Source of the DNA: Syntrophaceae bacterium
GTDB taxonomy: Bacteria; Desulfobacterota; Syntrophia; Syntrophales; PHBD01
Assembly (NCBI GenBank): GCA_013177825.1
Contig: JABLXX010000002.1
Span: forward strand, 124,001 to 188,000
DNA length: 64,000 bases
Reading direction: 5' to 3'
Position 1 is the stretch's first letter. Each line of letters starts with the position of its first letter. Below are positions 9,001 through 24,916 of this stretch, piece after piece. The notes below the pieces were generated by a model. The model had not been told where the DNA came from and searched no databases. It saw nothing but the letters and a program-made list of their open reading frames with translations. The translations under genes were made by a program, and so were the position numbers.

Positions 9001-12000
9001 GACCTGAGCCTGTACTCCGTCGCGACCAACGCCGGGACAGCCTTCATCACCGCGCCCACCGGGAGCATCTACAACGGGCGGTCCGACGGCGGGTCGAACG
9101 TCGTCTCCGGTAAGACCTACCTCTTCGCCGGCCTGAACATCGGCGCAGAAGACAAGCGGATCATGACCCTCGTGGACAACATCGAGGGCCTGGCCACCTC
9201 GGGGAGCACCTGGATCACGAACACCTCGGACCTCACCGTGGGCGGAGTCGTCCCCGGAAGCGAGCAGGGATTCCTGGGCGGCGGCGCCGTCAACATCACC
9301 GCGAGCTGCACCATCGACGTGACGGAAGACGTGATCTCGGAGGCGGATTCCATTGTCCTGACCGCGACCGAGCGGGCGGCGGACGTCGACGACCTGATCG
9401 TCCGGGACGGCATCACCGTCTGGTCGAAAACGAGCTATGTGACGCTGCGTGCCGGCGACGACGTGACGCTGGAAGAGGGCAGCTTCGTCCTGGCGGCGGG
9501 CAAGGTCACCATCAGCGGCGACTACGGGAGCGCCGACGCGGCCGGCACGACCATCCGCCTCCTGGGCGTGGTCGGCGGCAGCGAGGTCGAGGTGAACGGG
9601 AACGCCGACGACGACACGATCATCCTCGAGCGGACCCACGACACCGTCGTCTACCCGAACGCCGGCGTGCAGGCGGCGGTGGAGGGCACCTACGGCAACG
9701 TGACCAACGTCTATGCCTACGCCGGGAACGACACGGTCACCCTCCGCTCCGTCGACGGCCAGACGAACGTCTACGGAGGCGACGGGGAGGACCTGCTCAC
9801 CGCCGACACGCTCAAGACGCTGACCAGCAGCAAGTACGCAACGCGCGACGCCCTGAACCTGGACGGCCAGGCCGGGACGGACCGCTACGTCGTCAACGCC
9901 TCCGGGACCGGCGACTACATCGTCAACGTCACCGACACCGGGGCCCCGGACGACGGCACGGACACGCTGACCGTCAACGGCACGGCGGACGACGACGACT
10001 TCCTCCTCCGGAAGACCTTCGTGGCGGTCCTCCATGGCTCCTATGACGGTGGGTACTCCGCCGACGTCGAGCGCATCAACTACGACACGAGCATCAACGG
10101 CCGGCTGATCGTTGCCGGCGGCATCGGCGCGGATTCGTTCTTCACCGACGACAACTCCGCCATCACCACCCTGGACGGCGGTGCCGGGGCCGACTATTTC
10201 CAGATTGGACAGCTCTTCGGCTCCCTGCGCGATGTGGCCGCCAACATCGCCGTGGGCGACGTCTTCGAGACCATCGAGACGACCATGGGCTTCCTCAGCC
10301 GGGGGATCAGCTACGCGACGACCGTCTACGGCGGCAGCGGCAACGACACGTTCTCGGTCTACAACAACATCGCCAAGCTCCGCCTGGAGGGCGGCGACGG
10401 GAACGACGAGTTCGTGGTCCGGGCCTTCATCATGCTGCATTCCTTCGACCCGGAGCAGCAGCTCACCGAGGTGGACGGCGGCATCGGCGACGACTACATC
10501 CAGTACAGCATCAAGTCGCCCATCAGCATCAACGGCGGAGCGGGCTACGACCGCGTAGTGGCCCTGGGCACCGAGGCGAACGACGTCTTCGTCGTCACCT
10601 CCTACGGGATCTTCGGCGCCGGCATCAACATCACCCTGGACGGCGTCGAGGAGGCCCTCGAGGTGGACGGGCTGGAGGGCGACGACACGATCTTCGTCCT
10701 CAGCACTGCGGCCAACATGGTGACGACGATCATCGGCGGACTCGGGAACGACACGGTCAACGTGGCGGGCGACGTGACGGGAACGGTCATCAGCGCCGAG
10801 CTGGAGGGGAGAAGCGGCGTCATCAACCACAGCGTCACGAGCGACGACCCCGCCTACGACGGGCTCCTCGTGGACGGCATCGCCCTCAACGTGGCCGACG
10901 CGGAAACGGGCGCGGTCGTCATCACGGAGAGCGGCGGCGGCACGGTGGTGGACGAGGATGTGGCGGGCTCCGTGGACACCTACACGATCTCCCTGGCGAC
11001 GGCGTCCCTCGATCCGGTTGAGGCGGGCGATGTGGCCTACATCACCGTCTCCGCGGCCAAGTCGGAGTCGGAAGAGGGCGCCCTCGGGGCGGACACGGTC
11101 CTCCTGTCCACCGACGGCGTCAACTACTACGACGCGCTGGTCCTGACCTTCGACATCACGAACTGGACGGACAGCCAGACGATCTGGGTGAAGGCTGTCT
11201 CCGACGCCGTCTCCGAGGGCGAGCGGAACGTCACCGTGAGCCACAGCGTCATCAGCAACCGCGCCGACCTGGACAAGGCCAGGATCAACGACGTGATGGT
11301 GAAGGTCCAGGACGACGACAAGGCGGGCCTCGTCATCGTCGAGAGCGGGAACAACACGCAGGCCCTGGAGGGAGCCACCGACACCTTCACCGTGCGGCTG
11401 ACACACGCGGTTGCCGCCGGCGAGACGGTCACGGTCGACCTGGCATACAATGCAGGGCAGCTCTCCCTCGACACGGCGACACTCACCTTCGACAGCACGA
11501 ACTGGAACATCGCACAGACGGTCACCGTGACGGCCGTGGACGACGCCACGGCGGAAAACACGCAGACCTCGGTGATCACCGCCACGGTGACGAGCACCGA
11601 TCCGGGATTCACCGTCAGCGAGAAGCCGACGGTCAACGTGACCGTCGTCGACAACGACTCCGCCGGCGCCCTGATCACCCAGACGGACGGCTCCACGCGC
11701 GTGGTCCAGGGCGACGCCACGGGCGACACCTACAGCATCGTCCTGACGAAGGCACCGGCCGCGGGCACAACCGTCACCGTGAAGATCCTCACGGACGGGC
11801 AGACGGTCGTCTCCAGCGCCGACGCCCGCTTCAATTCCACGGACGGAACGGTCACCTTCACAGAGGCGGACTGGAACGTCGCCGCGGTGATCACGGTCAA
11901 GGCCACGGACGGGGCACCCACGGAAAACAACTTCGAGATGTCCTTCCCGCTGATGTCCCACACCCTGAATCGGATCCAGGGCCCCCTCGTCGTCGAGGGC

Positions 12001-14931
12001 GGCGTCGGGCCCGAGGATCGCTCCGTGAAGCCGGGCGTGACCCTCCCCGGGGAACTGAACCCGGACCTTCCCGAGGTCGTGATCGACGTCGACGAGTCCA
12101 CCATGACGGACACGCTGAACGTGTACAACGACGCCAGCGTCTCCGACGACACGGGGGTGATGTCGACGCTTCAGCTGCACACCGATTACAGCGTGAAGGC
12201 AGATGGAACCGTGTCGGCGACCCTGATCGGCGGCCTCGGCATGGGGACGGACCTCGTCGTGAACAAGGGCACGGAGGCGGCCCCCGACCTGTTCACCTAC
12301 AAGGGTGGCATTGCCTATACGAACCTCGAAGTCGCCGAAGTGCTCCTCGGGACGGGGAGCGACACCTTCACGGTAACGGGCACGCGGGCCGGGACGGCCA
12401 CGGCCGTCCACGGCGGCGGCGGTGCCGACACCCTGATCGTCACGGGCGGCGGTGGGTCGGCCTCGCCCCTGGTCCTGTACGGCGACACCTCCGAGGACGG
12501 CAGCCGCTACACCTCGACGGGCGGCACCCCCTCCAGTTCCGGCATCCGGTTCGATACCCCCGGGGCCGATACGATCGATGCATCCGCCTCAAACGACGGC
12601 GTTGTGATCTACGGCGGTCCCGGCGACGACCTGATCAACGGCAGCCAGGGGAACGACCAGATCGCCGGCGGCCTGGGCGACGACACGATCGACGGGCAGG
12701 CCGGGAACGACATCATCTACGGCGATTCAGGGTTCAATACCACGCTGTCGAGCCGCACCCTCACGGTGCCGACGACGGAAACCCCGGGGACCGACACGAT
12801 CGAGGGCGGCGCCGGCAACGACATCATCTTCGGCGACCACGGGATCGTCACCCAGGCGGCCTCCGGGCTTCTGGGCACGGGCGGCGTCAACCGGATCGAG
12901 ACAACAAGCGAGGCGGCCGGCCTGGGCGACACGATCCACGGCGGCGACGGCGACGACCGTATCTTCGGCGGCCTCGGGGCCGACGCGATCGAGGGGAACG
13001 GCGGCAACGACACGATCTTCGGCGACCACGGGGTCATGGACTACGTCTCGCGCGATGCGGACAACACGACCGCCGACCTGGCCTACACGCGGAACACGGC
13101 GTCCGGCGGCATCGACACGATTTACGGAAACGCCGGCGACGACACGATTTTCGGCGGCGTCGAGGCCGACCTGCTCTACGGAGGCAACGGCTCGGGCGGT
13201 GCCTCCGTCGTCGGCAGCGACAAGGATACCGTCATCGGCGACTTCGGCCGGATCACCTTCGCCGCCGGTGTCGTCTCCGCCACGGAGACCATCGATCCCG
13301 GCCAGGGGGCCAACGACACGATCGAAGGGAATGCAGACAACGACATCCTCATGGGCGGTTTCGGGTCCGACATGATCGACACGGGCCTCGGGAACGACAT
13401 CGTCTTCGGAGACAACGCGCGGATCGACCACGGCACCGACGGCGCACCGAAGTTCCTGGCAACGACCGACACAGCGGCGAATCCGGCCTTCGGCGGCGCC
13501 GACACAATCACCGCCGGCGACGGGGACAACGCGATCCTGGGAGGCATGGGCGCGGACCGGATCACGGTCGGCTCCGGGCGGAGCATCATCTTCGGCGACA
13601 ACGGCACGATCCGTTACGTGGGTTCGGCGGGACATCTCGTACCGGTCCTTGCCATTTCCACACAGCCTGGAAGCGGCGGCGACGACACCATCGTCGCGGG
13701 GAACGGCAACAAGCACGTGATCGCGGGCTTCGGGGACGATATGGTCACAACCGCCGGCGGCGACGACATCCTCATCGGCGACAACGGCGAGATCCAGTAT
13801 GAGAGCGGCATTCCGTCCCTCGTCCGGTCCATCGATCCCACCAGCGGCGGCGATGACGAGATGAGGAGCGGGACCGGCAGCGACATCCTCATCGGCGGCA
13901 CCGCCAGCGACCACATGTACGGCGGGGATGACAACGACGTCCTGATCGGAGACGGGGGGCAGGTCACCCTGACCTCCGGCGAATGGCTCTACGTCGAGAC
14001 GATCGATCACCACAGCGGCGGCGGCGACGACTATCTCGACAGCGGCTCCGGAGAAGACATCATGTTCGGCGGCGAGATCAGCAACACCTTCGTCGGCACC
14101 CTGGGCCAGGACGTCATGGTCGGAACCTACGGCCGGGTCACCATCATGGCCGGCAAGGTGCAGTCCCTGGTCCGCCTCGACAGCATCGACCTGATCACCA
14201 ATACCATGACATCCCTCGAGGATGGCACGAACGCAGAGTCCGAATCGCTCTGGAGTGGTACCTCCCCGGGAATGGGCGGACAGTCCGGGTCCGGCGGGGA
14301 GGAGAACGGAATGGCGCCGGGGGGGACCGGAGGCACGAATTTCGGCTCCTTCTTCTCGACCGGATCGACACTGCCGGGTGTCTGGGTGGCGACGAGCTAC
14401 GGAACGGAGCTCATGAGGCTGGGCGACGCCGATCTCTTCCAGGATGGGGAGGGGCACAGCGACAGCTATGAGGTTTCGCAGGGCGGATCGTCCGGCGATT
14501 CCGGTTCGGGACAGGGAGCGAATGACCGGGGCTCGGATTCGGGAGCGGGACAGGGAGCTTCCGGTCAGCAGGGCGAGGGAGGCCAGACCTCCGGAGAAGG
14601 GACCTCCGGTGAAACGGGTGACGGGCAGCAGACGGGCGACGGCGCCGCCGGCGGACAGGGGGCGCAGGGCCAGGGCGGCGAAGGCGGCGGTCCGCAGGAA
14701 CCGGAGCCCGGCGACGAAGGCTCGGCGGCCGTGGACGACGGGACGGATCTCGACCGCACGGTCGACATGGGGGCCGGAGCGGCGATGGCGGGCCTCCTGG
14801 GCTGGAAGGTCATCTCCGGCGGGGACCTCGGAAAGAGTGGCGTCATCGACCGGCAGTCGTTCAAGGATCTCGCGGAGAAGCAGGAAAAGAAGCGCTTCAA
14901 GACATGGAAGAGCGCTGGATCCTGGAAATGA
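1..14931 (+). CDS. Giant repetitive surface/secreted adhesin-like protein, 5' end outside window
   Basis: The frame is open from base 1, so the true start and any N-terminal signal lie upstream; about 4,976 residues are visible. Residues are counted from the Met codon at 31. Residues 1-1150 are Ala/Gly/Ser/Thr-rich repeats of about 50-60 residues with a recurring N-D-I/N-T-x-A-x-I pattern, as in leukotoxin/filamentous-adhesin beta-solenoids. Two 'GQxVxY...GLxxGxxYYV' modules lie near 720-800 and 2515-2570. Helical inserts lie near 1670-1710 and 2380-2430, and a Tyr-rich patch near 2020-2031. GGxGxD-type calcium-binding repeats occur at about 3190-3580 and 4170-4706. Three Calx-beta-like repeats lie between, at 3624-3976. 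The C-terminus is a Gly/Ser/Gln linker, a short hydrophobic stretch and a basic tail ending in WK. I infer an exported, Ca2+-stabilised adhesin or matrix protein. No catalytic domain was recognised. Export and modification genes follow on the same strand. Confidence 0.85.
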   Translation, partial: GFGNLIGVGNVNPDVEAAIKGGSYVRTSGAVNLSALDESSIITVGLSIAASGGVAVSGVVGYNRIENSLLAQVAGSTVIAGTSLALTARSDAYIFSFVGGVSGSGIVAAQLSVTVNDIDNDVEASIVNAVVDTVDTRSTVNTGLSVSLTARDASTIDSMAIGLAASGIVGAGGALSKNFIGNAVATSVTSSDVTAGLNVYLTSETIAVIRSFAAGLAGGGAGALQASITLNELRNSTTAVITGSTVTAGYTIQVSASDKAPASVPDYTTSMLIPTDVIADILDLVSDTGVSKTANILSFAGSIGGAGLAAGSAAASDNDIENTIEARITNSTVTSTYSDVVVMAESSAKIVSLAAGIGAAGIAALSASVTTNDIANTTTAAITGTSTVSAGDDVHVEATSGATIDSAAMTLSGALVAALGASVVTNTAGNTTKAYVDGTSAAQKARITKADQVSISASSTTALNGVSLGASIGMVAAGAMVSRSTVDGTTWAYVGDYTEIGQQAGSSVGSLSIAATSTDSAITKAYAVSAGIGAGTGNDAKSTITPDTRASIGNTSLRVTGAVDVAAQASVSAYAETYGVSAGALSVGVSLAEATVSPEVKAYVGGSGSTIRAGSLYVSATETYPTSGYAAKTYATGSSGGLIGINATESTASNTGTVSSYVADGTTLVVADSIAIQATGDSKQYASSDSNTYGLIAAGGNVSDAVSNVTTSAYLGNGVTVSSGTAIGGLTDGGTYYAIVDSKRPFTPATAISDSWINLGSGHGLQTGDTVVYRTGSSTNTAVGGLTAGQEYYVEVSTSDPALVRLYTLVVDVGTGNLVKGTLVTLDASVATGTGHRLDIVNPRLIKLASSFSNATADTPVAIDLSAPAVAGSENTVTPVSSAGTATAIAFSPETDLNATRNTIDVGTDSGLYSGKAVVYSKGAGPTLTITATGDDYNFAKSEAGSGGLVAGSGAESNVTATSSTSAAVADDTNTADAVRTTLDVSSLAIRAQHTARFDSQTNTIQASAVGFSGSWATNVVTSTVDAKIGDNALVTTQDLTIDAINTTRKNLLGADEYNVEAGSGGVLQGNAAESETDIANRTYASVGAGADITVTGDVYNPGDFRLTTYNDVEGYDDVRLDSGGLIVGSGATSAIRADVNDGIVTIEDGATIDTVGEVNLESRTRGVLKVEPQVHTYGLASAAVIDGMARIHSNNQVSVGANVDILAMGDINLLAGRDHYGVLNYFYVTSHGDELNASAVPISDLQSHGEIVQTLGVSVGTGSSLRTARDANLLMDETGTAQIWAYGSGKNWMTALASGIDAMCGSDGISEEMKGGTSTLEAHSTATVNGTIEVGIMKDLALVIGLDGTASVQNGITFTTTQESMVSNLVEELNRWYELLADYSGDPTTTAAYQVEINRILADLTAMGLTETVTENGNTYTVYTGSYVVPYITVDDIWAQAGTINVWADNFYGSGQLLAEGDITVSITNNSPSFLRINRITIPDTIGGVRFNSQSVSSNAAIADLNATGSASSFTSILTSTTGAAPVINITNTFDAGDPVYSGTDYEDSLTPDVELTGEIDAILATVTIRSEGSVVSTASIDAGTLYIISGVDFVQTYTDSLYSVANPGTVWTAVSNIAQNAKVDTTVNGLSTGTALEQAVYSVLHPDASQVSNIIAANNVYISARYLNINGVIQSGIAERAVTIAAAEQAAIDAAETAYSQYRSGARAAAAATAATAGLTTEDFKYFKLANTGTENIDVFWNAELDRLELEDVKIQGGYIELFGQILSTGSGQIKVLDGYGKITVTNQTSNTLVTNLLDTGQGVEGLIRITDTSPDYLIGGLPRVTEYRYVSGQVVKTVFAPGGVSVGTTTQGAAGTNEVQVIAMDAAVTGGTFTLTFNGQTTAALAWNATAAQVQAALSALSTIGAGNVSVSLNGSGDWVVTFQSALGGTNVNPIRTDGSALLAGAAASTDGRTAVYTPQAGMRYYWANGQDYSIQTSTTYASSDWLGIDSLVADPDNIVEGPTRTQVGQIRRLEDGTYVTDTDSGDYGYGYDYSYDYVQITQSTSTYTWAGNIVTVTSADPHLMSTGQKVLLDFTSGDAVNKDGTFTVTVIDDYSYRFLLFGAGTGGDVTVTRVQRNTWEDSTWYGKTTYYCKETLTTPYKDIHVQSVRADRDIGIAFIGYEAGDSNIRVTVTSVGSVLVNDSIQNPEGTTSLTSSSGQLRLINDTAVVGGRNISLGASTGIGADRTLRTNLNDGYTGTLSAVTTTGDIDIREISGDLIVDQVTTSKTTTTTTSNVTLTAHGDILGKDASNLVRGQKVTLTATYGDIGTLGTGGTAVTPGAGAQALRIDTGDADDHSLTATAVGDVNITETTGTLHLNSVVTDGSVRITVESGGLTDANSNEVRDDRTWAQLLALYERMMATGDAADESVAATIAAYEALKTQEYQTYWRYRNSVGGSYDPSQTIALSDAEIDWYTDYYTGQGKTAGEIAIALQTLVNARTASYHVLHRTYGDVSATYDSSWSYDVDDVALHDRVGSAEISGSAVELTSHVFTTGQAVVYHAGGGAIDGLVDGTIYYVVVDASNASVIRLAATLADAGTNTTLGFTWVSGASHWFSDGDVLSQRAKWSEAQLKNSISASILRPKTVSGTSSTIEDPNITGSEVALVVSGEIGSADVTMDITLADINAGLTEEQKVALAAAEKQDVTFYDTDGNVMAPDDVGKTFARLHINVKNDVDFKTEGLLTVSAGTGANLGSEQTADVRVDRITSTAGEVRLKVQGNIVNARTDGGYNVRSDGAVLEAEDGSIGTSAKSFLIDMIEAGRTGALTARAKTDVYLRETSGDLYVSSVYAGTFIDLRSERSLLDADADDATTRTWNIYSPDAYLLAGASGTIGADGSALETDLQGGVLNADAGQSIYLYESAGNLVVGVIKSASANVNLGAALSIHDNDEGVEGNPSPDVIGNSIILTAGFEIGAANDYLDIDTAFSGAGTLTSTSEFNTFLIEISSKATPGAGDEDLSLYSVATNAGTAFITAPTGSIYNGRSDGGSNVVSGKTYLFAGLNIGAEDKRIMTLVDNIEGLATSGSTWITNTSDLTVGGVVPGSEQGFLGGGAVNITASCTIDVTEDVISEADSIVLTATERAADVDDLIVRDGITVWSKTSYVTLRAGDDVTLEEGSFVLAAGKVTISGDYGSADAAGTTIRLLGVVGGSEVEVNGNADDDTIILERTHDTVVYPNAGVQAAVEGTYGNVTNVYAYAGNDTVTLRSVDGQTNVYGGDGEDLLTADTLKTLTSSKYATRDALNLDGQAGTDRYVVNASGTGDYIVNVTDTGAPDDGTDTLTVNGTADDDDFLLRKTFVAVLHGSYDGGYSADVERINYDTSINGRLIVAGGIGADSFFTDDNSAITTLDGGAGADYFQIGQLFGSLRDVAANIAVGDVFETIETTMGFLSRGISYATTVYGGSGNDTFSVYNNIAKLRLEGGDGNDEFVVRAFIMLHSFDPEQQLTEVDGGIGDDYIQYSIKSPISINGGAGYDRVVALGTEANDVFVVTSYGIFGAGINITLDGVEEALEVDGLEGDDTIFVLSTAANMVTTIIGGLGNDTVNVAGDVTGTVISAELEGRSGVINHSVTSDDPAYDGLLVDGIALNVADAETGAVVITESGGGTVVDEDVAGSVDTYTISLATASLDPVEAGDVAYITVSAAKSESEEGALGADTVLLSTDGVNYYDALVLTFDITNWTDSQTIWVKAVSDAVSEGERNVTVSHSVISNRADLDKARINDVMVKVQDDDKAGLVIVESGNNTQALEGATDTFTVRLTHAVAAGETVTVDLAYNAGQLSLDTATLTFDSTNWNIAQTVTVTAVDDATAENTQTSVITATVTSTDPGFTVSEKPTVNVTVVDNDSAGALITQTDGSTRVVQGDATGDTYSIVLTKAPAAGTTVTVKILTDGQTVVSSADARFNSTDGTVTFTEADWNVAAVITVKATDGAPTENNFEMSFPLMSHTLNRIQGPLVVEGGVGPEDRSVKPGVTLPGELNPDLPEVVIDVDESTMTDTLNVYNDASVSDDTGVMSTLQLHTDYSVKADGTVSATLIGGLGMGTDLVVNKGTEAAPDLFTYKGGIAYTNLEVAEVLLGTGSDTFTVTGTRAGTATAVHGGGGADTLIVTGGGGSASPLVLYGDTSEDGSRYTSTGGTPSSSGIRFDTPGADTIDASASNDGVVIYGGPGDDLINGSQGNDQIAGGLGDDTIDGQAGNDIIYGDSGFNTTLSSRTLTVPTTETPGTDTIEGGAGNDIIFGDHGIVTQAASGLLGTGGVNRIETTSEAAGLGDTIHGGDGDDRIFGGLGADAIEGNGGNDTIFGDHGVMDYVSRDADNTTADLAYTRNTASGGIDTIYGNAGDDTIFGGVEADLLYGGNGSGGASVVGSDKDTVIGDFGRITFAAGVVSATETIDPGQGANDTIEGNADNDILMGGFGSDMIDTGLGNDIVFGDNARIDHGTDGAPKFLATTDTAANPAFGGADTITAGDGDNAILGGMGADRITVGSGRSIIFGDNGTIRYVGSAGHLVPVLAISTQPGSGGDDTIVAGNGNKHVIAGFGDDMVTTAGGDDILIGDNGEIQYESGIPSLVRSIDPTSGGDDEMRSGTGSDILIGGTASDHMYGGDDNDVLIGDGGQVTLTSGEWLYVETIDHHSGGGDDYLDSGSGEDIMFGGEISNTFVGTLGQDVMVGTYGRVTIMAGKVQSLVRLDSIDLITNTMTSLEDGTNAESESLWSGTSPGMGGQSGSGGEENGMAPGGTGGTNFGSFFSTGSTLPGVWVATSYGTELMRLGDADLFQDGEGHSDSYEVSQGGSSGDSGSGQGANDRGSDSGAGQGASGQQGEGGQTSGEGTSGETGDGQQTGDGAAGGQGAQGQGGEGGGPQEPEPGDEGSAAVDDGTDLDRTVDMGAGAAMAGLLGWKVISGGDLGKSGVIDRQSFKDLAEKQEKKRFKTWKSAGSWK

Positions 14932-14983: not shown

Positions 14984-15024
14984 GATCCGGCAGACAGCCG
15001 GAGGCGCCCTGCCAGGGTGAACGG

Positions 15025-16134
15025 ATGGCGAACCTGAAGGCGGAACTCATTCACATTTTCCTCTCCCCGGCGGGGGAGTTCCATTTTCTCGTCCGGGGAA
15101 AGCTGCCGGAAGCGGCGGGGTTCGGCGGACATGACCGTCCGGCCGACAAGAGGATCATCCTGCCGCCCGCTGCCGCGAAACGGCTGGCTCTCGTCCTCGA
15201 AGCGGCCGTGGAGGATTACGAGGCGGAATTCGGGCTGGCACCCGAACCGGGCGCGGACCGCTCTCCGGGGGAGGAGCGGCGGCGGATCATCGACTCCGTT
15301 CAGGGGGAAAAGGCCCGCCGGCTCATCGACCGGATCGACGGGCTCGGCGTCCACTACGGGTTCGAGCAGTCTTTCAAGATGCTGCCGGGGACGCTCCTGG
15401 GCAACCGTTTCCTTGCCGGTTTTCACAGGGAGGCGGCGGGGCGCGGCCTCGAAGGGAAACTGGACGATCTCTGCAGGGCCGTCGGCATGCCGGAGTCCCA
15501 GCGGCTGGAATTCCTCCGGGGCCTCCCCGAGGCGAACATCGTGCTGTTCGGCTTCGAAGAAGGCGAAGACACGTCCCTCTACAAGGCCTACCTGGAATAT
15601 GGACCGGAGTTCCGGCGCGTGATCCGGGATTCCCCGGACGACCCGGGCTCTTTCGTGATCCACCGGGGCTTCAAGTGGGATGCCGGCGACAGCGCCCGCC
15701 ACACGACGGCCCGCTACCTGTGCCACCCCTCCTGGTCCGTGGAGACGATTCTCCGGCGGCTGTCGGAGTCCTTTTACGGCGGCGGCCGGAATCCGGTATA
15801 CGGGATTGTCAGGGGAATCGTGGAGACGGCCGCCCGGAGGATGAGGCCCGAAGAGCATCTCTACGTGGAGGTGGAGGAGGAGGGGAATCCCCGGGTATCC
15901 TTCGACCTCAACCTGTACCGGGCCAACCTGCTCCTGGGAGAGCTTTACCCGTTCCTGCTCATGATGTGCCGGCACCTGTCGATTGACGAGGAGACGTTCC
16001 ACCGTGTCTACGAACCGGCGAAGAAGCAGATCTTCGGGCATGTTTCCGGCGGAACCGATCGCCGGGGACGGGATTTCCTGACCGTCTACTACGGCGTGAA
16101 GGGAAGCTCCCGGCAGGGGCCCGGAGGACACTGA
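15025..16134 (+). CDS. DUF3467-like domain fused to a PatF/LynF-like (ABBA prenyltransferase-like) domain
   Basis: 369 residues, soluble. Residues 8-71 match the small DUF3467 protein encoded at 20251: both carry a 'R-I/V-I-L-x-P-x-A-A-K-R-L' core followed by an 'E-x-x-F-G' end. The remainder (about 95-365) resembles, from memory of the family, cyanobactin peptide prenyltransferases of the PatF/TruF/LynF type. The matching segments are an 'L-I-D-R-I-D-x-L-G-V' segment, an 'F-G-F-E' strand, 'SFDLNLYRANL' near 293, and a 'GHVSGGTDRRGRDF' segment near 337-350 followed by a TVYYG strand. The start ATG is preceded by AGGGTGAAC. It opens a three-gene run with the radical SAM gene 96 bases downstream. 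The prenyltransferase assignment is inference; a non-catalytic ABBA-like fold is possible. Confidence 0.55.
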   Translation: MANLKAELIHIFLSPAGEFHFLVRGKLPEAAGFGGHDRPADKRIILPPAAAKRLALVLEAAVEDYEAEFGLAPEPGADRSPGEERRRIIDSVQGEKARRLIDRIDGLGVHYGFEQSFKMLPGTLLGNRFLAGFHREAAGRGLEGKLDDLCRAVGMPESQRLEFLRGLPEANIVLFGFEEGEDTSLYKAYLEYGPEFRRVIRDSPDDPGSFVIHRGFKWDAGDSARHTTARYLCHPSWSVETILRRLSESFYGGGRNPVYGIVRGIVETAARRMRPEEHLYVEVEEEGNPRVSFDLNLYRANLLLGELYPFLLMMCRHLSIDEETFHRVYEPAKKQIFGHVSGGTDRRGRDFLTVYYGVKGSSRQGPGGH

Positions 16135-16230
16135 ACGGGAAAACAGAAGAAATGAGGCGCCGGCCCTCGGGACGGGGAGCCGGATCGCGGGGACGGAAAT
16201 ACCGTTCCCGGGAGGGGGAATCGGGGGATC

Positions 16231-17175
16231 GTGGAGCGCAAGGTTCCGGTCGGGCGTGTCGACCTGGCGAAGTACATCGTCGTCTCCGTCTGGTTCGGCT
16301 GCAACAATGCCTGCAACATCTGCATGCTCTCGGACATCCGCGGGACGCTGCCGCCCATCGGCTTCGACCGGTACCGGAAGATCATCCGCGACGTCGTCCG
16401 GGAAGAGCGCTTCGAGAACCTGATCCTCTCCGGCGCGGAAGTGACGACCTTCGACGATCTGGACCGGTACGTCCGCTTCGCCACATCCTTCGACTGGTTC
16501 CGGAAGATCCAGGTCCAGACGAACGGCCGGCGCCTCGCCGACCGGCGCTACCTGGACAACCTCGTCGCCTGCGGGGTGAACGAGTTCTTCGTCAGCGTCC
16601 ACGGACTCGAAGAAGTCCATGATGCGATCACCGGTGTGGCGGGATCGTTCCGGGAGACCCTGGCGGGACTCCGGAACCTGGGAGCCTACAGGGGCGTGAA
16701 CGTGATCACCAATACGGTCCTGAACCAGATCAATGTTCGCGAACTCCGGCCGCTGATGAATTTCCTGGCGGGCCTCCGGACCAGCGAGATCCACCTGTGG
16801 AACCTCTTCCCCATGGGAGAGACGGACCGGCAAGACCTCCTGGTGGGTCTCCCGGAGTTCCTGCGGATCCTGCCGGAGATCCTGGAGGAGGTCGGCCCGT
16901 CGGGCAAGCCGGTGGTCCTGAAGAGCTTTCCGGAGTGCCTCCCGGCGGGGCCGCCGGCCGTCTTCGACGACTGGTTTCCCGTGACGGTGCTGCCGAACCG
17001 GTTCTGGCAGGAATTCGGCCGAAGCGGCTTCGGGAGCTGTGTCCACCGGGAGAAATGCGGGGCCCGGGAATGCTGGGGGCTCTCCAACGCCTACCTGCGG
17101 AAATTCGGAGACGAGCGGGAACTCCTGTCGCCCTTCGGTGGGCGGTCCGCCGACCGGTCCCGGGGAGCGGATTGA
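16231..17175 (+). CDS. Radical SAM protein with C-terminal cysteines
   Basis: 314 residues, starting at GTG with a GGGGGATC Shine-Dalgarno-like stretch upstream. The radical SAM signature CNNACNIC places cluster cysteines at residues 24, 28 and 31. It is followed by a GAEVTT segment in the place of the usual GGEP SAM-binding loop. A cysteine group near residues 268-285 (S-C-V-H-R-E-K-C then E-C-W) could bind an auxiliary cluster, as in SPASM or Twitch enzymes. The substrate is unknown. Its position between two PatF-like genes, upstream of a PqqD-like-domain protein, suggests peptide or protein modification rather than cofactor synthesis. Nine bases separate its stop from the next start, so the two genes are probably cotranscribed. 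Confidence 0.75.
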   Translation: MERKVPVGRVDLAKYIVVSVWFGCNNACNICMLSDIRGTLPPIGFDRYRKIIRDVVREERFENLILSGAEVTTFDDLDRYVRFATSFDWFRKIQVQTNGRRLADRRYLDNLVACGVNEFFVSVHGLEEVHDAITGVAGSFRETLAGLRNLGAYRGVNVITNTVLNQINVRELRPLMNFLAGLRTSEIHLWNLFPMGETDRQDLLVGLPEFLRILPEILEEVGPSGKPVVLKSFPECLPAGPPAVFDDWFPVTVLPNRFWQEFGRSGFGSCVHREKCGARECWGLSNAYLRKFGDERELLSPFGGRSADRSRGAD

Positions 17176-17184
17176 GGAACGGCC

Positions 17185-18045
17185 ATGGAACGGCGCGAGA
17201 TCATGACAGCCGGGGATCCCTTCTTCAATTACTGCCTGTGGCAGTACGACCCGGCGGCCCCCTGGGAAGGCAAGATGCGGTCGGCGAACCTGCTGTTCCA
17301 CTCCTTCGAGCACGCCGGGGCCGACGGGCGGATGTTCGACCTGGTCGATCTTGTCCGGCAGGGTATCGGTCCCTCCATGAGCGTCTGGGGCGTGAAGCGG
17401 GCGGGGGAGAGGATCGGCTGGGAATACTATTTCTACGACTACCGGAGGCGGGAGCGGCAGCGGTCCGCGACGAGGGTCCTCCGGGCGATGGCGCCCCTGG
17501 TCCGGTCCACGGCGGCCCTCAACGAGGATCAGCACTATTTCATGTTTTCCCTCGACATCGACGATGCGCTGGTTTCGGGGGGCCGGGACCTGGACGAGAT
17601 CCACATGTACATCGGCAATCCGGGGAGCGCCGTCTCCTCCGGCATCTGCTATTCCGTCACCCCGTCGGGCTCCCGCCTGGAGAACTTCTATTTCTTCTTC
17701 GACGCGGCGCGGCACCGGCAGGACATCCTGGCCAAGATCGCCTGCTCCGCCCAGATCGATTCGACGGCCCTCGACCTCGATGCGATCTACCGGCCGGAGC
17801 TTCGGGACTGCCGGACCGTCTGCCTGGCGAACAAGCAGCGGAGCGACTGCATCTATTTTTCCGGCATCACCGTGGATCAGTTGATCTTTTTCATGAACTG
17901 GCTGGAGTATCCGCGGGGGCTCCGCTCCTTCGTGGAGGAGAACCGGGCGCAGCTCGACCACCTGCTGTACGACGTCGGGTTCGACTACCGGATGGAAGGC
18001 GGGCTGTTGAGGATCGAAAAGAGCGGGTACTACGGGATCTTCTAG
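17185..18045 (+). CDS. PatF/LynF-like protein (putative ABBA-fold prenyltransferase relative)
   Basis: 286 residues, no membrane segment. It starts at ATG after GAGGAAC. The protein is rich in aromatic beta-strand segments (for example GWEYYFYDY near 75 and YFMFSLDIDD near 118). It holds 'SRLENFYFFFD' at about 162-172, which resembles a C-terminal motif I remember from LynF/TruF-type peptide prenyltransferases. The order of strands and helices fits such an ABBA fold, but residue conservation elsewhere is weak, so the assignment is tentative. It is distinct in sequence from the PatF-like half of the protein encoded at 15025. Both probably act with the radical SAM enzyme between them. It is followed by a palindromic intergenic element rather than another coding gene. 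Confidence 0.45.
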   Translation: MERREIMTAGDPFFNYCLWQYDPAAPWEGKMRSANLLFHSFEHAGADGRMFDLVDLVRQGIGPSMSVWGVKRAGERIGWEYYFYDYRRRERQRSATRVLRAMAPLVRSTAALNEDQHYFMFSLDIDDALVSGGRDLDEIHMYIGNPGSAVSSGICYSVTPSGSRLENFYFFFDAARHRQDILAKIACSAQIDSTALDLDAIYRPELRDCRTVCLANKQRSDCIYFSGITVDQLIFFMNWLEYPRGLRSFVEENRAQLDHLLYDVGFDYRMEGGLLRIEKSGYYGIF

Positions 18046-18051
18046 AGTCAT

Positions 18052-18412
18052 GGCGCAGGGGGCTGCCACGGGGGCTCCCGCCGTCGCGGACTTTTTTTCC
18101 ACGATCCGTCATCGACGACCAGGAAGGCTGGAGGGATGGAAAAAAAGTCCTAATTGCTCCTCTGGGAACCCCCGGTCGCGCCCCCGCGAAGGTCGGTCGG
18201 GGAGGGGGGCTTCCCGGAGCGCGAATAGCGGCTTTTTCGGGGCACCCTGCCGTCGCAGCGCAGCGCCCGCAAAGTCATCTGTCTGAGCGCCGCCAGGCGC
18301 GAGTTATGACTTTGCAGCGGAGCGAGACGTTGCAGGGTCGAAAAAACGCTTCTGAGCGCGAGGGAAGTCTCACTCCCGTTCAGGTGCACGCCCCCGTGGC
18401 AGCCCCCGCGCC
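18052..18412. repeat. Palindromic element A with terminal inverted repeats
   Basis: The intergenic stretch 18046-18437 contains no gene but is highly structured. Its ends, 18052-18075 and 18390-18412, are inverted repeats of 23-24 bases differing by a single indel. Inside the left part, 18088-18101 pairs perfectly with 18137-18150 (14 bp). The right part is a nested palindrome: 18244-18250 pairs with 18332-18338, and 18269-18278 with 18306-18315. The left 130 bases are related, in inverted orientation, to the element at 34397-34523, with the stem sequence changed on both sides. No transposase is present, so it resembles a non-autonomous palindromic repeat or a structured RNA. Confidence 0.75.
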
Positions 18413-19058: not shown

Positions 19059-19087
19059 GCGGACTCCATGATGGAAACGGGGATTTG

Positions 19088-20134
19088 GTGAACAAAGTGA
19101 CGTTGCCCGGTTCGGACCGGGAGTTCGATTATCTCTGTGTGGACGATTTTCTGCCGGATATCCTGACTGCCCGGTGCCTTGGCACGGCCTTCGAGAGCGG
19201 CCTTGTCGATTATTTCCTGGAGCGCGGGACGGTCTCTTTCGAAGAGCTGGCGGACCGGTTCCGTGCGGACCGGCGGGGGATGGAGCTGCTTCTGGACCAG
19301 CTTATCGCCGGCCGGGTGGTTCTCCGCCGCAACGGAGAGTTCCTGTTGTCGGAGGCATTCCTCCACGCTTTGGCCTATCGGGATCTCCTGGAACTGAAGC
19401 TGGAGCTGGCAAACTTCTGCGCCTACGACGTCCTGAGTTATTTCCCCGACTTCGTCTTTCGCCCCCGGGAATTTGCGAAGAAATCGGATTTTTACGGGCT
19501 GTTCGCCTACGACCGGTGCAGCGAGCGGAGCGAGGAGGCCGTCCGGGTGGCCCGGCGGTGGATGCGGGTCACGACGGTGCTGACGAAATACGAGGCCCGG
19601 GCCTGCCTGAAGTACCACGATTTCGGAGGATGCCGGCGCATCCTGGACGTTGGCGGAAACAGCGGGGAATTCGTCCTCCGGATCTGCCGGAGCCATCCTG
19701 GCGTTGAGGCCGCGGTCTTCGATCTGCCGCTGGTCTGCGAGATCGGAGCCGCCCACCTGAGCGGAGAGCCGGAAGCATCGCGGATCTCCTTTGTGAAAGG
19801 CAACGCGCTGGTCGATGTCTGGCCGGGCGGTTTCGACCTGGTCAGCTTCAAGTCGATGCTCCACGACTGGCCGGACGAAGCGGCGAAAGAGCTGATGGCC
19901 CGGGCCGCCGGCGCCCTCGATCCGGGAGGGACGGTGCTCATCTTCGAGCGGGCCCCCCTGGAGCTTGACGGAAGGCCGCTCCCCTACTCCCTGGTTCCGT
20001 TTCTGCTCTTTCATCATAGTTACCGCCCGCCTCGTTTCTACGTGGACCATTTGCGGGCCCTTGGTTTCGGTAAGGTGGAGGTCCGGAAAATCGATCTGGA
20101 GATGCCCTTTTTTCTGGTGACGGGCACCCGGTGA
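19088..20134 (+). CDS. SAM-dependent O-methyltransferase (family 2 layout)
   Basis: 348 residues from the GTG at 19088; a TTG three bases earlier is also possible. A winged-helix-like N-terminal dimerisation region (about 20-95, with 'FEELADRF...' spacing) precedes a Rossmann methyltransferase domain. That domain has SAM motif I ILDVGGNSGEF near residues 187-197 and the acidic strand VEAAVFDLP. An LHDWPDEAAKE segment near 258 matches the 'LHDW' helix that supplies the catalytic base in plant and polyketide O-methyltransferases. It is therefore expected to methylate a hydroxyl group on an unknown substrate. It lies between the PatF/radical SAM genes and the export genes, so it may take part in tailoring. 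Confidence 0.7.
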   Translation: MNKVTLPGSDREFDYLCVDDFLPDILTARCLGTAFESGLVDYFLERGTVSFEELADRFRADRRGMELLLDQLIAGRVVLRRNGEFLLSEAFLHALAYRDLLELKLELANFCAYDVLSYFPDFVFRPREFAKKSDFYGLFAYDRCSERSEEAVRVARRWMRVTTVLTKYEARACLKYHDFGGCRRILDVGGNSGEFVLRICRSHPGVEAAVFDLPLVCEIGAAHLSGEPEASRISFVKGNALVDVWPGGFDLVSFKSMLHDWPDEAAKELMARAAGALDPGGTVLIFERAPLELDGRPLPYSLVPFLLFHHSYRPPRFYVDHLRALGFGKVEVRKIDLEMPFFLVTGTR

Positions 20135-20250: not shown

Positions 20251-20595
20251 ATGGCAGCAAAAAACGAGAAAACCGTTCAGGCCTCCCTTCCGGGGGCCGA
20301 TGCGGATAATGTCAAGGCGACAATCCGCTGGGATGTCGCCAAGATGCAGACAACCTACGCCAACGTCTGCAACGTCTCCAGCACCCGCGAGGAGTTCACG
20401 CTCCTGTTCGGCATCAACAAGACCTGGAATCCCGAGCAGCGTGAGCTGACGGTGGACATCAGCGACCGCGTCATCCTGAATCCCTTCGCGGCCAAGCGCC
20501 TTTCGCTCCTGCTCCGGAACATCGTGCGCCAGCATGAGAGCCGCTTCGGTGAAATCCAGCTGGAAGCCGGCGACAAGCCGGAGGAGAACGCATAA
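20251..20595 (+). CDS. DUF3467 family protein
   Basis: 114 residues. The start is fixed by GAGGAGGAAAGC immediately before the ATG at 20251; the upstream extension is not supported. The protein has the DUF3467 layout: a 'TYANVCNVSSTREEF' segment, a long beta-strand region, then a 'RVILNPFAAKRLSLLL' helix and an 'ESRFGEI' end. The family is of unknown biochemical function and is usually encoded as a small stand-alone protein. The N-terminus of the protein encoded at 15025 carries the same domain, so two DUF3467 domains occur in this locus. They could be paired binding or adaptor modules. A strong ribosome binding site and a following terminator suggest higher expression than the neighbours. 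Confidence 0.75.
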   Translation: MAAKNEKTVQASLPGADADNVKATIRWDVAKMQTTYANVCNVSSTREEFTLLFGINKTWNPEQRELTVDISDRVILNPFAAKRLSLLLRNIVRQHESRFGEIQLEAGDKPEENA

Positions 20596-20875: not shown

Positions 20876-22699
20876 ATGATGGAAAAACTCTGGATCGATC
20901 TCGAACATGCCGAAAGGTCCGACGATTTCGCCGCGGCCTGGCTGGCCATCCAGTCCTCCCTCATCCGGGGGTGCGTCCAGGCGGTCCTGGTGCTCCGGGA
21001 TCCCCTCCGGCAGAGCTTCGCACCCGTGGCCTCGTGGCCGGAGGGAAGCACAGGGGAGCCCCTGGCGGCCGTCCTGGAGCACACGATTACCGAGTCGGAA
21101 GGGATGCTCGTGGAGCTGTCCGAGATCGACGGCATTGCCGCGGACACGGTTCGGCACTACGGCCTGGCCTACCCGGTCATCATGGACGGCGAACTTTACG
21201 GCGCCGTGGCCGTGGAGGTGACCGCCCCTTCCGGAGAAGCGCTTCGTACCGCCATGGAGGATCTGCGCTGGGGGTCCGTCTGGCTCGAGAACCGGATCCG
21301 CCGGCTCCGGGGCGTGGAAGACACGAAAACCCTGAAGCGTATGAAGGCGGCGGTGGACATCCTGGCCGGGGTGCTGGCGGAGGAACGCTTCGACGGGGCG
21401 GCCAAGGCCTTCGTGACGGAAATCGCCAACCGCCTGGAATGCGACCGGGTAAGCCTGGGCCTGGTGAAGGGGAAGCACACTCAGGTGAAGGCGATCTCCC
21501 ATACGGCGATCGTCGGCCAGAAGATGAACCTGATGCAGTCGATCAGCGCCGCCATGGACGAGGCGGTCATGCATCGCGGCGAGATCCTGTACCCCGTTCC
21601 CCCGGATGCCGGGGCCCTGGTCGTTCGCGACCACGAGCAGATGGCCCAGCGGCACGGCACCCGGGCGATGATGACCCTGCCCCTTTACGGGCACGACAAG
21701 TACTATGCGGCGCTCACCCTGGAGCGGCAGGACGAGCGGCCCTTCTCCGCCGATGACGTCGCCTACGTCAAGAGTGTCGTCGCCCTGGCGGGACCCGTGC
21801 TGGAGAACAAGCACCGCCAGGACCGGCCCTTCGTGTTCGGCATGCTCGATGCCCTGAAGCGGCAGGCGGTCCGGCTGTTCGGCCCGGGCTATATCGTCCG
21901 GAAGGCCGCCGTCCTGGGCGTGATCGCCCTCGTCGTCTTTTTCAGCCTGGCCATGGACGAATACAGGCTCTCCGCGAATGCGGTCCTGGAGGGCTCCATC
22001 AGCCGCTCCCTCGTCTCGCCCATGGACGGGTACATCAAGACGGCGAGCGCTCGGGCGGGCGACGTCGTGAAGAAGGACACGGTCATCTGTCAGCTGGACG
22101 ACCGGGAACTGATGCTGGAGAGGATCAACCTCGCAAGCAAACGGGGGCAGTACGACCGGCAGTACAAGAAGGCCATGGCCGAGCACAACCGCGCCGAGGC
22201 GAACATCGTCAGCGCCCAGGCGGGACAGGTCCAGGCCGAGTTGAACCTCCTGGACAACAGGCTCCGGCAGATCGTCATCCGGGCCCCCTTCGACGGCGTC
22301 CTCCTCAGCGGCGACCTGAGCCAGAAGCAGGGCGCCGCGGTGAAGCGCGGCGAGGAGCTCTTCGTGATCGCGCCGCTGGACGCGTACCGGCTCATCCTCA
22401 AGGTAGACGAGCACGGTATCGCCGACGTGAAGGAGGGACAGCGGGGCGTCCTGGTCCTGTCCTCGCTTTCCCGGGAAAAATACCCCTTCACGGTGAAGAA
22501 GATCACGCCCCTCTCGACGGCGGAAGAGGGGAAGAACTATTTCCGCGTCGAGGCCATGCTGGACAACATGTCTCCCCGCCTGCGGCCGGGCATGGAGGGC
22601 ATCGGCAAGATCGAGGTCGACCGGAGGCTCATGATCTCCATCTGGACGAGGGGCCTGATCGACTGGTTCCGCCTCCGCCTGTGGTCGTGGCTGCCCTGA
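20876..22699 (+). CDS. GAF-domain HlyD-type membrane fusion protein
   Basis: 607 residues; ATGs at 20876 and 20879 are equally possible. Residues 1-150 look like a degenerate GAF-like region, and about 155-320 is a recognisable GAF domain. Both would be cytoplasmic. A single membrane segment at about 343-361 (AAVLGVIALVVFFSLA) leads to a periplasmic HlyD/biotinyl-lipoyl-like part (about 370-590). That part has 'SPMDGYIKTASARAGDVVKKD', a central helical hairpin and 'IRAPFDGVLLSGDLS'. A cytoplasmic GAF sensor on a membrane fusion protein is unusual and suggests export controlled by a small ligand. The gene is nine bases upstream of the M50-HlyD gene, and no ABC ATPase or RND pump is encoded beside it. 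Confidence 0.8.
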   Translation: MMEKLWIDLEHAERSDDFAAAWLAIQSSLIRGCVQAVLVLRDPLRQSFAPVASWPEGSTGEPLAAVLEHTITESEGMLVELSEIDGIAADTVRHYGLAYPVIMDGELYGAVAVEVTAPSGEALRTAMEDLRWGSVWLENRIRRLRGVEDTKTLKRMKAAVDILAGVLAEERFDGAAKAFVTEIANRLECDRVSLGLVKGKHTQVKAISHTAIVGQKMNLMQSISAAMDEAVMHRGEILYPVPPDAGALVVRDHEQMAQRHGTRAMMTLPLYGHDKYYAALTLERQDERPFSADDVAYVKSVVALAGPVLENKHRQDRPFVFGMLDALKRQAVRLFGPGYIVRKAAVLGVIALVVFFSLAMDEYRLSANAVLEGSISRSLVSPMDGYIKTASARAGDVVKKDTVICQLDDRELMLERINLASKRGQYDRQYKKAMAEHNRAEANIVSAQAGQVQAELNLLDNRLRQIVIRAPFDGVLLSGDLSQKQGAAVKRGEELFVIAPLDAYRLILKVDEHGIADVKEGQRGVLVLSSLSREKYPFTVKKITPLSTAEEGKNYFRVEAMLDNMSPRLRPGMEGIGKIEVDRRLMISIWTRGLIDWFRLRLWSWLP

Positions 22700-22708: not shown

Positions 22709-24853
22709 GTGGACAAAACCCTGTACAGCAGTTCCTGGTACCGCGTTGCGAATCTGAAGCCGCTCGTGAGGCGGCACGCGGAGATCCACCGGCATACCTA
22801 TCGCGGGAAGGTCTGGTACGTCCTCCAGGATCACTCCACGGGCCGCTTCCACCGGTTCACCGAGGAGTCCTATTTCCTGATCGGCCTCATGGACGGAAAG
22901 CGGACCATCCAGGAAATCTGGGAGGCCGCCTGCCTCAAGCTGGCGGACGACATGCCGACCCAGGACGAGGTGATCGGCCTGGTCTCCCAGCTCAACAAGG
23001 CCGATGTCCTGCAGTCGGACGCCGCTCCCGACGTGGAAAACCTGAACCGGCGAAGCCGGAAGGACCGGTCGTCCCGGTTCTGGAACACGGTGCGCTCGCC
23101 CCTGGCCATTCGCATCCCCCTTCTGGATCCGGACCGGTTTCTCGAAAAGACGAAGGGAATCGTCGGTCCGCTGTTCACGATGCCGGCCTTCCTGGTCTGG
23201 CTCATCGTCGTCATCACCGGGGCGGTCCTTGCCTCCGTGCACTGGAACGAACTCGTCTCCAACCTGGCCGACCGGGTCCTCGCCCTTGAAAACCTGTTCA
23301 TCTTCTGGCTGATCTATCCCATTGTCAAGGCGCTCCACGAATTCGGCCATGCCTGGGCGGTGAAGCACTGGGGCGGGGAGGTCCACGAGATGGGGATCAT
23401 CTTCCTCGTATTCATGCCCATTCCCTATGTCGATGCCTCGGCCACCTCCGCCTTCCGCGAAAAGAGAAGAAGGATCATCGTCGGCGCCGCCGGCATCATG
23501 GTCGAGCTCCTGATCGCCGCCCTGGCCATGATTCTCTGGGTGAACACGGGGCCCGGGGCCGTCCGGGCGGTGGCATACAACACGATGATCGTCGCCGGCG
23601 TCTCCACGATTCTCTTCAACGGCAACCCCCTCCTGCGGTTCGACGCCTACTACGTCCTGTCGGATTTCCTGGAGATCCCCAACCTGGGGTCGCGCTCCAA
23701 CCAGTACATCGGGTACCTGGCCCAGCGGTACGCGATCGGGAACGACGAGGCCGAGTTTGCCCTGGCCGACGCCGGGGAGGGGAGGTGGCTCGTCCTGTAC
23801 GGCGTGGCCTCGTTCTTCTACCGCATCTTCATCACGCTGCAGATCGCCCTCTTCATTGCGGGCCGGTTCTTCTTCATCGGCGTCGTGATCGCCATCTGGG
23901 CGGTCATCGGACTGATGGTCGTTCCGCTCTTCCGGATCGCCCGCAGCGTCATGAACAACCGGGCGCTGTACCGGCGGCGGGGCCGGATCCTCGGCCTGGG
24001 CGTCCTTTCCCTGGCGATCATCGGGGTCCTTGTCGGGGCCGTCCGCCTGCCTTCATACACCGTCGCCGAGGGGATCCTCTGGCCCGCGGAGCAGGCCCGG
24101 ATCCATGCCCGGGTGGACGGCGAGGTCAAGGAAGTCCTGGCGAAACCGGGCATCCGGCTGAAAAAGGGGGACCTCATCCTGCGGTGCGAGAATCCCGATC
24201 TCGTCTCCAGGGTGCAGGCCCTCGAGGCGGAGATGCGGAGCTTTGGAGCCCGCCAGCGGATGGCCTTCGTCCAGGACCGGACGACGGAGCGGATGGTCCA
24301 GGAAGAGCTGGCCCGCGTCGGGAAGGAACTGGCGGAGGCGAGAGAGCAGGTGGCGTCACTCGTCATCCGGAGCCCCATCGAGGGAGAGATCCTCATTCCC
24401 CGGTCCCAGGACCTGCCCGGGCGCTTCCTCAGGCGCGGGGAGGCCGTGGGTTACGTCGTCGATTATTCGGGCGTTGCGGTTCGTGTCGTCGTTCCCCAGT
24501 CGGAAGTGGACCGGATCCGGACGGACGTGCGTTCGGTCAAGGCGAGGCCGGCGGAAAACATTTCCCGGATCATCCCGTCGGAACTCGTTCGGGAAGTGCC
24601 GGCGGCGACGGGGGACCTGCCCAGTTTCGCCCTGTCCCTGAAGGGCGGCGGCGCCTTTGCCCTCGATCCGCGGGAGACGGAGCGGCCGCGGTCCTTCGAG
24701 AACCTCTTCCACTTCGAGGTGCGCCTGCAGGATGCAACGGGAACGCGGATCGGAGAGCGGATCTACGTGCGGTTCGAGCACACCCCGGAATCGCTTGCCC
24801 ACCGATGGTACAGGGAAATCAGGGGCATCTTCCTCAAGCGGTTCGAAGCCTGA
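22709..24853 (+). CDS. PqqD-like domain / M50 site-2 peptidase / HlyD fusion
   Basis: 714 residues, GTG start after GAGGT. Residues about 20-105 (RYHTYRGK-like strands, then 'FHRFTEESYFLIGLMDGKRTIQEI' in pieces) have the winged-helix PqqD layout that binds leader peptides in RiPP systems. Transmembrane segments follow, with the zinc motif HEFGH (H210, E211, H214) and the distal NPLLRFD motif (N306, D312) of site-2 metalloproteases, both intact. After a last membrane segment near 430, a HlyD-like periplasmic arm contains 'ARVDGEVKEVLAKPGIRLKKGD' (in two parts), a helical hairpin and 'IRSPIEGEILIP'. The family is known as putative peptide zinc metalloprotease proteins. I infer recognition or cleavage of exported clients coupled to an envelope conduit. 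Confidence 0.85.
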   Translation: MDKTLYSSSWYRVANLKPLVRRHAEIHRHTYRGKVWYVLQDHSTGRFHRFTEESYFLIGLMDGKRTIQEIWEAACLKLADDMPTQDEVIGLVSQLNKADVLQSDAAPDVENLNRRSRKDRSSRFWNTVRSPLAIRIPLLDPDRFLEKTKGIVGPLFTMPAFLVWLIVVITGAVLASVHWNELVSNLADRVLALENLFIFWLIYPIVKALHEFGHAWAVKHWGGEVHEMGIIFLVFMPIPYVDASATSAFREKRRRIIVGAAGIMVELLIAALAMILWVNTGPGAVRAVAYNTMIVAGVSTILFNGNPLLRFDAYYVLSDFLEIPNLGSRSNQYIGYLAQRYAIGNDEAEFALADAGEGRWLVLYGVASFFYRIFITLQIALFIAGRFFFIGVVIAIWAVIGLMVVPLFRIARSVMNNRALYRRRGRILGLGVLSLAIIGVLVGAVRLPSYTVAEGILWPAEQARIHARVDGEVKEVLAKPGIRLKKGDLILRCENPDLVSRVQALEAEMRSFGARQRMAFVQDRTTERMVQEELARVGKELAEAREQVASLVIRSPIEGEILIPRSQDLPGRFLRRGEAVGYVVDYSGVAVRVVVPQSEVDRIRTDVRSVKARPAENISRIIPSELVREVPAATGDLPSFALSLKGGGAFALDPRETERPRSFENLFHFEVRLQDATGTRIGERIYVRFEHTPESLAHRWYREIRGIFLKRFEA

Positions 24854-24916
24854 GGCAAAAACAGCGGACCGGCTTCACCGGGGATGCTGCGTTGCGGGAG
24901 AAGAAAACAATCCACC

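Follow-up and report, generated by a model that had tools for sequence, protein, structure and literature searches.

A cassette of two predicted ABBA barrels and a radical SAM enzyme beside a LEPR-XLL giant protein: a possible export-and-modification system

Accessory Sec systems export a giant adhesin by means of a second SecA, after enzymes encoded in its neighborhood have modified it in the cytosol. The active sites of prenyltransferases of the DMATS type combine a catalytic glutamate with K-x-Y and R-x-Y pairs that bind the diphosphate. The prenyltransferases acting on proteins or peptides were divided in a 2026 review into eukaryotic, cyanobactin-type ABBA, and trans-IDS-like classes, of which the bacterial ones act on peptides (PMC13290415); in the short ABBA form of about 285 amino acids (aa), as in the cyanobactin enzymes, the pocket stays accessible to peptides (PMC13290415). 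Here we analyzed a stretch of 64,000 nucleotides from a Syntrophaceae bacterium (assembly GCA_013177825.1, contig JABLXX010000002.1, positions 124,001 to 188,000; hereafter the window, with positions counted from its first letter), in which a cassette encoding two predicted ABBA barrels and a radical S-adenosylmethionine (SAM) enzyme lies between the gene of a giant LEPR-XLL protein and a set of putative export genes. We put the probability that the giant exoprotein has in this locus an export-and-modification system of its own at about one in two. The folds and enzyme classes involved are already known, and it is their arrangement that is new relative to the openly licensed literature, in which searches on DUF3467, LEPR-XLL, DUF4347, ABBA plus radical SAM in ribosomally synthesized and post-translationally modified peptides (RiPPs), and PqqD/SecA/RTX/HlyD found no description of such a system. 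The genes of the locus are the following.

1..14931, +, LEPR-XLL giant, C-terminal 4,976 of its 10,790 aa; start outside the window, at G000:C2:106559 (genome:contig:position)
15025..16134, +, DUF3467 domain (about residues 5 to 70) plus predicted ABBA barrel (residues 76 to 361), putative prenyltransferase, "P0001", 369 aa
16231..17175, +, radical SAM enzyme, 314 aa, GTG start (PF04055, CX3CX2C)
17185..18045, +, second ABBA-barrel protein according to its predicted structure, "P0003", 286 aa
18438..19058, -, P-loop kinase, uridine kinase-like (PRK08233), recurring in the cassettes
19085..20134, +, SAM methyltransferase (PF00891), encoded in 28 of the loci studied
20251..20595, +, stand-alone DUF3467 protein, part of the exporter core (listed reading frame starts at TTG 20176)
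20876..22699, +, GAF domains plus HlyD-type adaptor
22709..24853, +, PqqD-like domain plus M50 intramembrane metalloprotease plus HlyD adaptor
24884..26923, +, second SecA, C-terminally short, 679 aa (the genome's other SecA: G000:C3:262843)
26933..27673, +, HlyD-type periplasmic adaptor

The two ABBA candidates and the enzyme between them turned out to be real genes under purifying selection, as judged from their comparison with a sister metagenome-assembled genome (L013): the 15025 and 17185 proteins were 92 to 94% identical to their counterparts there, and the ratio of nonsynonymous to synonymous substitution rates was 0.18 to 0.22 for all three genes. Their order was kept in more than 10 other loci. 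The long antisense open reading frames (e.g., 14950-18102, - strand) were dismissed as artifacts of high GC content, the conservation residing in the + frame.

The original prediction, made from the window alone, had described the 15025 and 17185 products as PatF/LynF-like proteins, the former fused to DUF3467. A structure of the 15025 protein was predicted from an alignment of 26 family members (mean predicted local distance difference test score [pLDDT], 85). Its residues 82 to 361 were superposed on CymD with a VIA-align Z score of 17.6 (root mean square deviation [rmsd] of 3.6 over 263 aligned residues), and further comparisons of the model (residues 76 to 361) gave Z scores of 17.0 for 5-DMATS, 15.8 for KgpF, and 15.6 for PatF. 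Foldseek retrieved 5-DMATS (6zs0, E = 8.5e-8) and PagF (E = 4.3e-7), and the enzymes acting on free tryptophan (CymD, PriB, and 5-/6-DMATS) were among the closest folds. By its model, the C-terminal part of the protein is thus an ABBA barrel. Ten positions are invariant in the family (E114, S116, R128, K187, Y189, K217, Y231, R290, Y298, and Y355), a set that, in sequence, resembles the catalytic glutamate and the K-x-Y/R-x-Y pairs of the DMATS enzymes. When the family profile was compared with the Protein Data Bank (PDB), only two matches were obtained at an E value of up to 10, 9vtd (0.11) and 9vte (1.3), neither of them significant, and both are annotated as LynF/TruF/PatF, with E114, S116, and R128 aligning with their E-S-S...R. 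Weak when taken alone, these matches are nonetheless consistent with the predicted structure, and the 15025 family shares its predicted fold, and probably its catalytic layout, with the LynF-type enzymes.

The fusion to DUF3467 also held. In the window protein itself the domain (PF11950) scored 23.7 bits at residues 41 to 70, just under the cut-off of 25, and across the family it was matched in 14 of the 26 members (E of up to 1), the best at 1.5e-14; the homologues from Planctomycetaceae do not have it. Two homologues of 678 to 681 aa (L009:5484-7517 and L019:6801-8843) were found to carry two ABBA-type domains in tandem behind a single DUF3467 domain.

Within the cassette, conservation is highest for the 17185 protein (P0003), with 41 to 65% identity across phyla. 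Its structure, predicted from an alignment of 31 sequences, had a mean pLDDT of 94.3, and Foldseek returned 45 PDB matches at an E value of up to 0.001, all of them aromatic or peptide prenyltransferases; among them were FamD1 (1.0e-7), AmbP3 (2.3e-7), LimF (1.7e-6), and KgpF (2.5e-6). VIA-align gave a Z score of 13.3 for a fungal enzyme (rmsd of 4.2 over 246 aligned residues) and 9.7 for PatF. This product, too, is an ABBA barrel in its predicted structure, so that the lack of such a barrel, named beforehand as an outcome that would speak against the original prediction, did not occur. The invariant residues on the barrel strands are mostly aromatic or acidic (Y82, Y84, D124, N167, D263, and D267), and basic ones are few (K71 and K217). 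The basic diphosphate-binding set of the DMATS enzymes is missing, which makes a prenyl activity of P0003 uncertain. These residues, as well as the lack of any detectable similarity between the profiles of the 15025 and 17185 families, would suit an explanation in which one or both barrels are not prenyltransferases, P0003 being perhaps a pseudoenzyme, a binder of another ligand, a scaffold, or a peptide-binding partner. We regard this as improbable, given the strong conservation of P0003 over phyla and the fact that its fold neighbors, among the 50 matches listed, are all ABBA enzymes and prenyltransferases.

Sharing the fold did not amount to membership in the cyanobactin family. No match to the LynF/TruF/PatF model (TIGR04445) or to any other prenyltransferase model was found with P0001, P0003, or the 31 members of the P0003 family; a search of the bacterium's own genome with TIGR04445 found nothing at the 15025 and 17185 genes; and the profile of the 17185 family, compared with the PDB, matched no entry at all. 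The two proteins are therefore ABBA-fold proteins outside the LynF family. What they have in common with the cyanobactin enzymes (LynF/TruF/PatF, LimF, KgpF, and PagF) is a barrel of about 285 to 300 aa (about 285 aa here), shorter than that of the fungal DMATS enzymes, and, in the 15025 family, an E-x-S...R motif that aligns with the LynF-type enzymes. They differ in the missing TIGR04445/NCBIfam match, in the DUF3467 fusion of the 15025 protein, and in their surroundings: among the neighboring genes typed by Pfam and NCBIfam there were no PatA/PatG-type proteases and no PatE-like precursor, a heterocyclase is likewise missing, and there is a link to a giant exoprotein instead. The DMATS-type and hapalindole indole prenyltransferases (CymD, 5-/6-DMATS, FgaPT2, and AmbP/FamD1) provided the best fold matches (Z of 17.6 for 15025 and 13.3 for 17185) and share with the 15025 family the conserved set of the Glu plus K-x-Y/R-x-Y type. 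Identity to them, however, is only about 7 to 17%, and the genes here lie beside an exporter for a giant protein, not in an alkaloid cluster.

The enzyme encoded between the two barrels is a radical SAM protein, as had been claimed (PF04055, E = 1e-16), with HxsC4 as the nearest curated model (3.9e-25). Its CX3CX2C motif (C24, C28, and C31) is invariant over 18 homologues, as are four more cysteines (C236, C270, C276, and C281), whose conservation suggests an auxiliary iron-sulfur cluster.

The resemblance to HxsC4, the LynF-like fold of the ABBA proteins, and the similarity of the PqqD-M50 protein encoded at 22709 to a daptide protease (1.7e-45) would all agree with a RiPP pathway having a short precursor of its own, which the ABBA proteins would prenylate while PqqD binds the leader, M50 cuts it, and HlyD exports the product. 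A comparison of small open reading frames across the cassette loci, however, found none conserved beyond near-identical relatives, in line with the failure of the original prediction to find a precursor peptide. Moreover, the PqqD-M50 protein is also encoded beside giants that have no ABBA, radical SAM, or methyltransferase gene, so that it belongs to the exporter of the giant. A RiPP pathway of this kind thus seems quite improbable.

The giant itself is a LEPR-XLL protein, which the original prediction had not recognized. Its gene starts 17.4 kb upstream of the window and encodes 10,790 aa (open frame of 10,794 aa), with the N terminus MWRLKNRKKG...PYQFEALEPRLLLSAD and the C-terminal tail GWK...VIDRQSFKDLAEKQEKKRFKTW. 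The motif (NF012209) scored 33.2 bits against a cut-off of 17 at residues 29 to 49 and is followed by DUF4347 (4e-48) and RTX repeats; the score above the curated cut-off, the basic N-terminal stretch, and DUF4347 are features in common with the LEPR-XLL proteins at large, for which we found neither a dedicated exporter nor a prenyl-type modification in the openly licensed literature. In the window genome and in G153, G303, G310, and G314, the giants adjacent to the cassette could be followed back to LEPR-XLL starts, and their open frames span 15,080 (G153), 14,979 (G310, locus L026), 12,340 (G303, L019), 10,794 (window), and 8,012 aa (G314, L030).

Other observations on the giants concern single loci. 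Those of L009, L019, L029, and L030 contain a matrixin-like HExGHxxG protease motif just before the C-terminal tail, which suggests that they process themselves. The contig of L019 (G303, C10) encodes two LEPR-XLL giants (at 12279 and 32294; frames of 5,897 and 12,340 aa) with nearly identical N-terminal signals. In L028 (3-7915), the reading frame of the giant gene breaks into two overlapping ones close to the 3' end, because of either a frameshift or an assembly error.

We then considered the genes downstream of the cassette. The free DUF3467 protein (20251-20595) scored 83 bits. The PqqD-like domain that had been noted there earlier is indeed present in the 22709 product: it is weak by itself (PF05402, 0.012), and the N-terminal half of the protein matches the daptide intramembrane metalloprotease model at 1.7e-45. 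The SecA encoded at 24884 is a second one, since a SecA of canonical length is encoded elsewhere in the genome. From the identity and position of these genes we infer that the DUF3467, HlyD, PqqD-M50, and SecA proteins together export the giants. The domain common to the exporter and the ABBA fusion is DUF3467, which, from its context, is more plausibly an adaptor or chaperone than a substrate. A SecB-like chaperone structure was considered for it and dropped, as the DUF3467 profile matched no solved structure even at an E value of 10. The second SecA lacks most of the C-terminal part, and copies 50 to 54% identical to it were found beside LEPR-XLL giants in G252, G153, G203, and G088.

The resemblance to accessory Sec (SecA2/SecY2, with glycosylated serine-rich repeat adhesins) lies in a giant adhesin-like gene adjoining cytosolic modification enzymes and in the presence of a second SecA and a candidate chaperone. 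Nevertheless, the locus is not an accessory Sec system. The second SecA scored 509 bits with the SecA2 model TIGR03714 (cut-off, 930) and fell below every SecA2 cut-off; no SecY2, Asp, or glycosyltransferase (Gtf) was matched among the cluster genes scanned; the modification enzymes are of the ABBA, radical SAM, and methyltransferase types; and HlyD and PqqD-M50 proteins are added.

The association of these genes with the giants was also examined across genomes. Among 297 genomes of the phylum, LEPR-XLL was present in 12 and the PqqD-M50-HlyD protein (E of up to 1e-60) in 7, all 7 of which were among the 12; the probability of such an overlap by chance is 2e-11, without correction for relatedness. 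The exporter thus goes with LEPR-XLL giants, a link absent from the original prediction. A scan of contigs with the 17185 product yielded 33 loci in 33 other genomes (39 to 92% identity) belonging to Delta-, Beta-, Gamma-, and Alphaproteobacteria, Rokubacteria, Methylomirabilota, and Planctomycetota, and the usual neighbors of P0003 were a 15025-type protein, a radical SAM enzyme, and a methyltransferase directly behind the giant. The giant adjoins the cassette in 15 loci (the window included), four more have a LEPR-like giant (LEPR, LEQR, or LEHR) within a few kilobases, and many of the remaining loci are cut by contig ends. LEPR-XLL was detected in 22 of the 33 genomes at an E value of up to 0.01 and in 25 at up to 0.1; the comparison of 22/33 with the background of 12/297 is fair for Proteobacteria only, since genomes of Planctomycetota frequently encode LEPR proteins in large numbers. 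The gene order of G252 and G208, which is giant, DUF3467, GAF-HlyD, PqqD-M50, SecA, and HlyD, includes none of the ABBA, radical SAM, and methyltransferase genes, and the 15025 profile found only the DUF3467 part there; these enzymes are therefore an add-on to the giant and its exporter. In G203, the giant, two DUF3467 genes, and the exporter are accompanied by a 15025-type protein and no P0003.

Either the giant or the DUF3467 protein had been proposed as the substrate. The giant fits the genomic evidence, while the DUF3467 protein had to be rejected, as it is retained in exporters lacking ABBA genes (L051 and L054). That the giant is the substrate and that the reaction is of the prenyl type is what we infer for the cassette, and the main argument for the giant instead of a free metabolite is the fusion of DUF3467 to the ABBA barrel. 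The course of events could be as follows. The giant would be synthesized in the cytosol, where DUF3467, as its chaperone or adaptor, would hand it to the second SecA, and the M50 and HlyD proteins would complete its processing and passage. In some lineages, the DUF3467 domain fused to the ABBA prenyltransferase (15025) would bring that enzyme to the giant, which would be prenylated on an aromatic side chain, most likely tryptophan to judge from the fold neighbors; P0003 and the radical SAM, methyltransferase, and kinase enzymes would produce or further process this modification, either ahead of export or in its course. A surface protein would thus receive a group that is lipid-like or hydrophobic in some other way, by the logic of accessory Sec and its glycosylation with prenyl-type chemistry instead. 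This specific version, in which exporter-linked DUF3467 recruits the prenyltransferase to a surface protein of 8,000 to 15,000 residues that is tailored by the radical SAM enzyme and the methyltransferase prior to export, is tentative, and we hold it to be somewhat short of an even chance.

Several observations, besides the missing basic set of P0003, weigh against a modified giant. Among the tails of the giants, type 1, GW...(V/I)(I/L)D(R/K)..F..L......(K/R)F.KW, occurs in genomes with and without ABBA genes and for this reason is probably an export signal; its C-terminal tryptophan was rejected as an ABBA-specific target, the tail being the same in G252 and G208. Type 2, W..(D/E)F(L/V)...P....I(K/Q/R)I or W..(D/E)F..(8-14)..P....I(K/Q/R)I, was found in ABBA-positive loci only, these being few and having no ABBA-negative counterpart for comparison. 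The N-terminal LEPR region contained no ABBA-specific aromatic residue, so neither tails nor LEPR region identified a modification site. In Planctomycetota, the commonness of LEPR-XLL weakens the evidence from co-occurrence. The PF00891 methyltransferase family, as well as the families of the flavin halogenases and of the WelO5-like halogenase found in loci from Planctomycetaceae, mostly acts on small molecules, and the two B12-binding radical SAM proteins of those loci count in the same direction.

These loci (L037, L039 to L042, and L044; e.g., L040:1-10852) represent a version of the cassette built around divergent ABBA proteins. They encode Trp_halogenase-family flavoenzymes (two in L039 to L041), a 2-oxoglutarate-dependent halogenase like WelO5 (PF22814, 2.8e-80 in L040), a SAM methyltransferase, the two B12-binding radical SAM proteins, a kinase, and a methyltransferase, with a gene set varying from locus to locus; a LEPR/LEQR giant follows the cassette in L039 and L040.

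The observations on enzyme families would be accounted for if the ABBA pair, together with the radical SAM, methyltransferase, and kinase enzymes (and the halogenases in Planctomycetaceae), turned a free amino acid, for instance tryptophan, into a prenylated aromatic metabolite, the giant being its surface partner, its carrier, or merely a frequent neighbor. The closest folds, which include CymD, PriB, and 5-/6-DMATS, all acting on free tryptophan, and the hapalindole enzymes FamD1/AmbP, agree with such a pathway, and the high conservation of P0003 would suit a small, invariant substrate. We nevertheless consider it unlikely: no scaffold-forming enzyme was seen in the loci, and both the DUF3467-ABBA fusion and the position directly behind the giant across phyla would be left unexplained.

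If the giant is indeed exported and modified by the locus, ABBA-type prenylation would reach very large proteins, and not just peptides or metabolites. The LEPR-XLL motif and DUF3467 would be placed in a functional setting for the first time, and a testable exporter would be at hand for some of the largest proteins of bacteria, no route for them being described in the openly licensed literature searched. The recurrence of the cassette beside giants in several phyla suggests that giant surface proteins are chemically decorated and exported by a system not described so far.

Additional radical SAM proteins were encoded beside the cassette in L008 (17253-19900) and L035 (5227-9096). They comprise a protein of 513 to 518 aa, whose N-terminal region is radical SAM/SPASM-like and whose second half looks similar, and one or two relatives of the MiaB/RimO-like methylthiotransferases.

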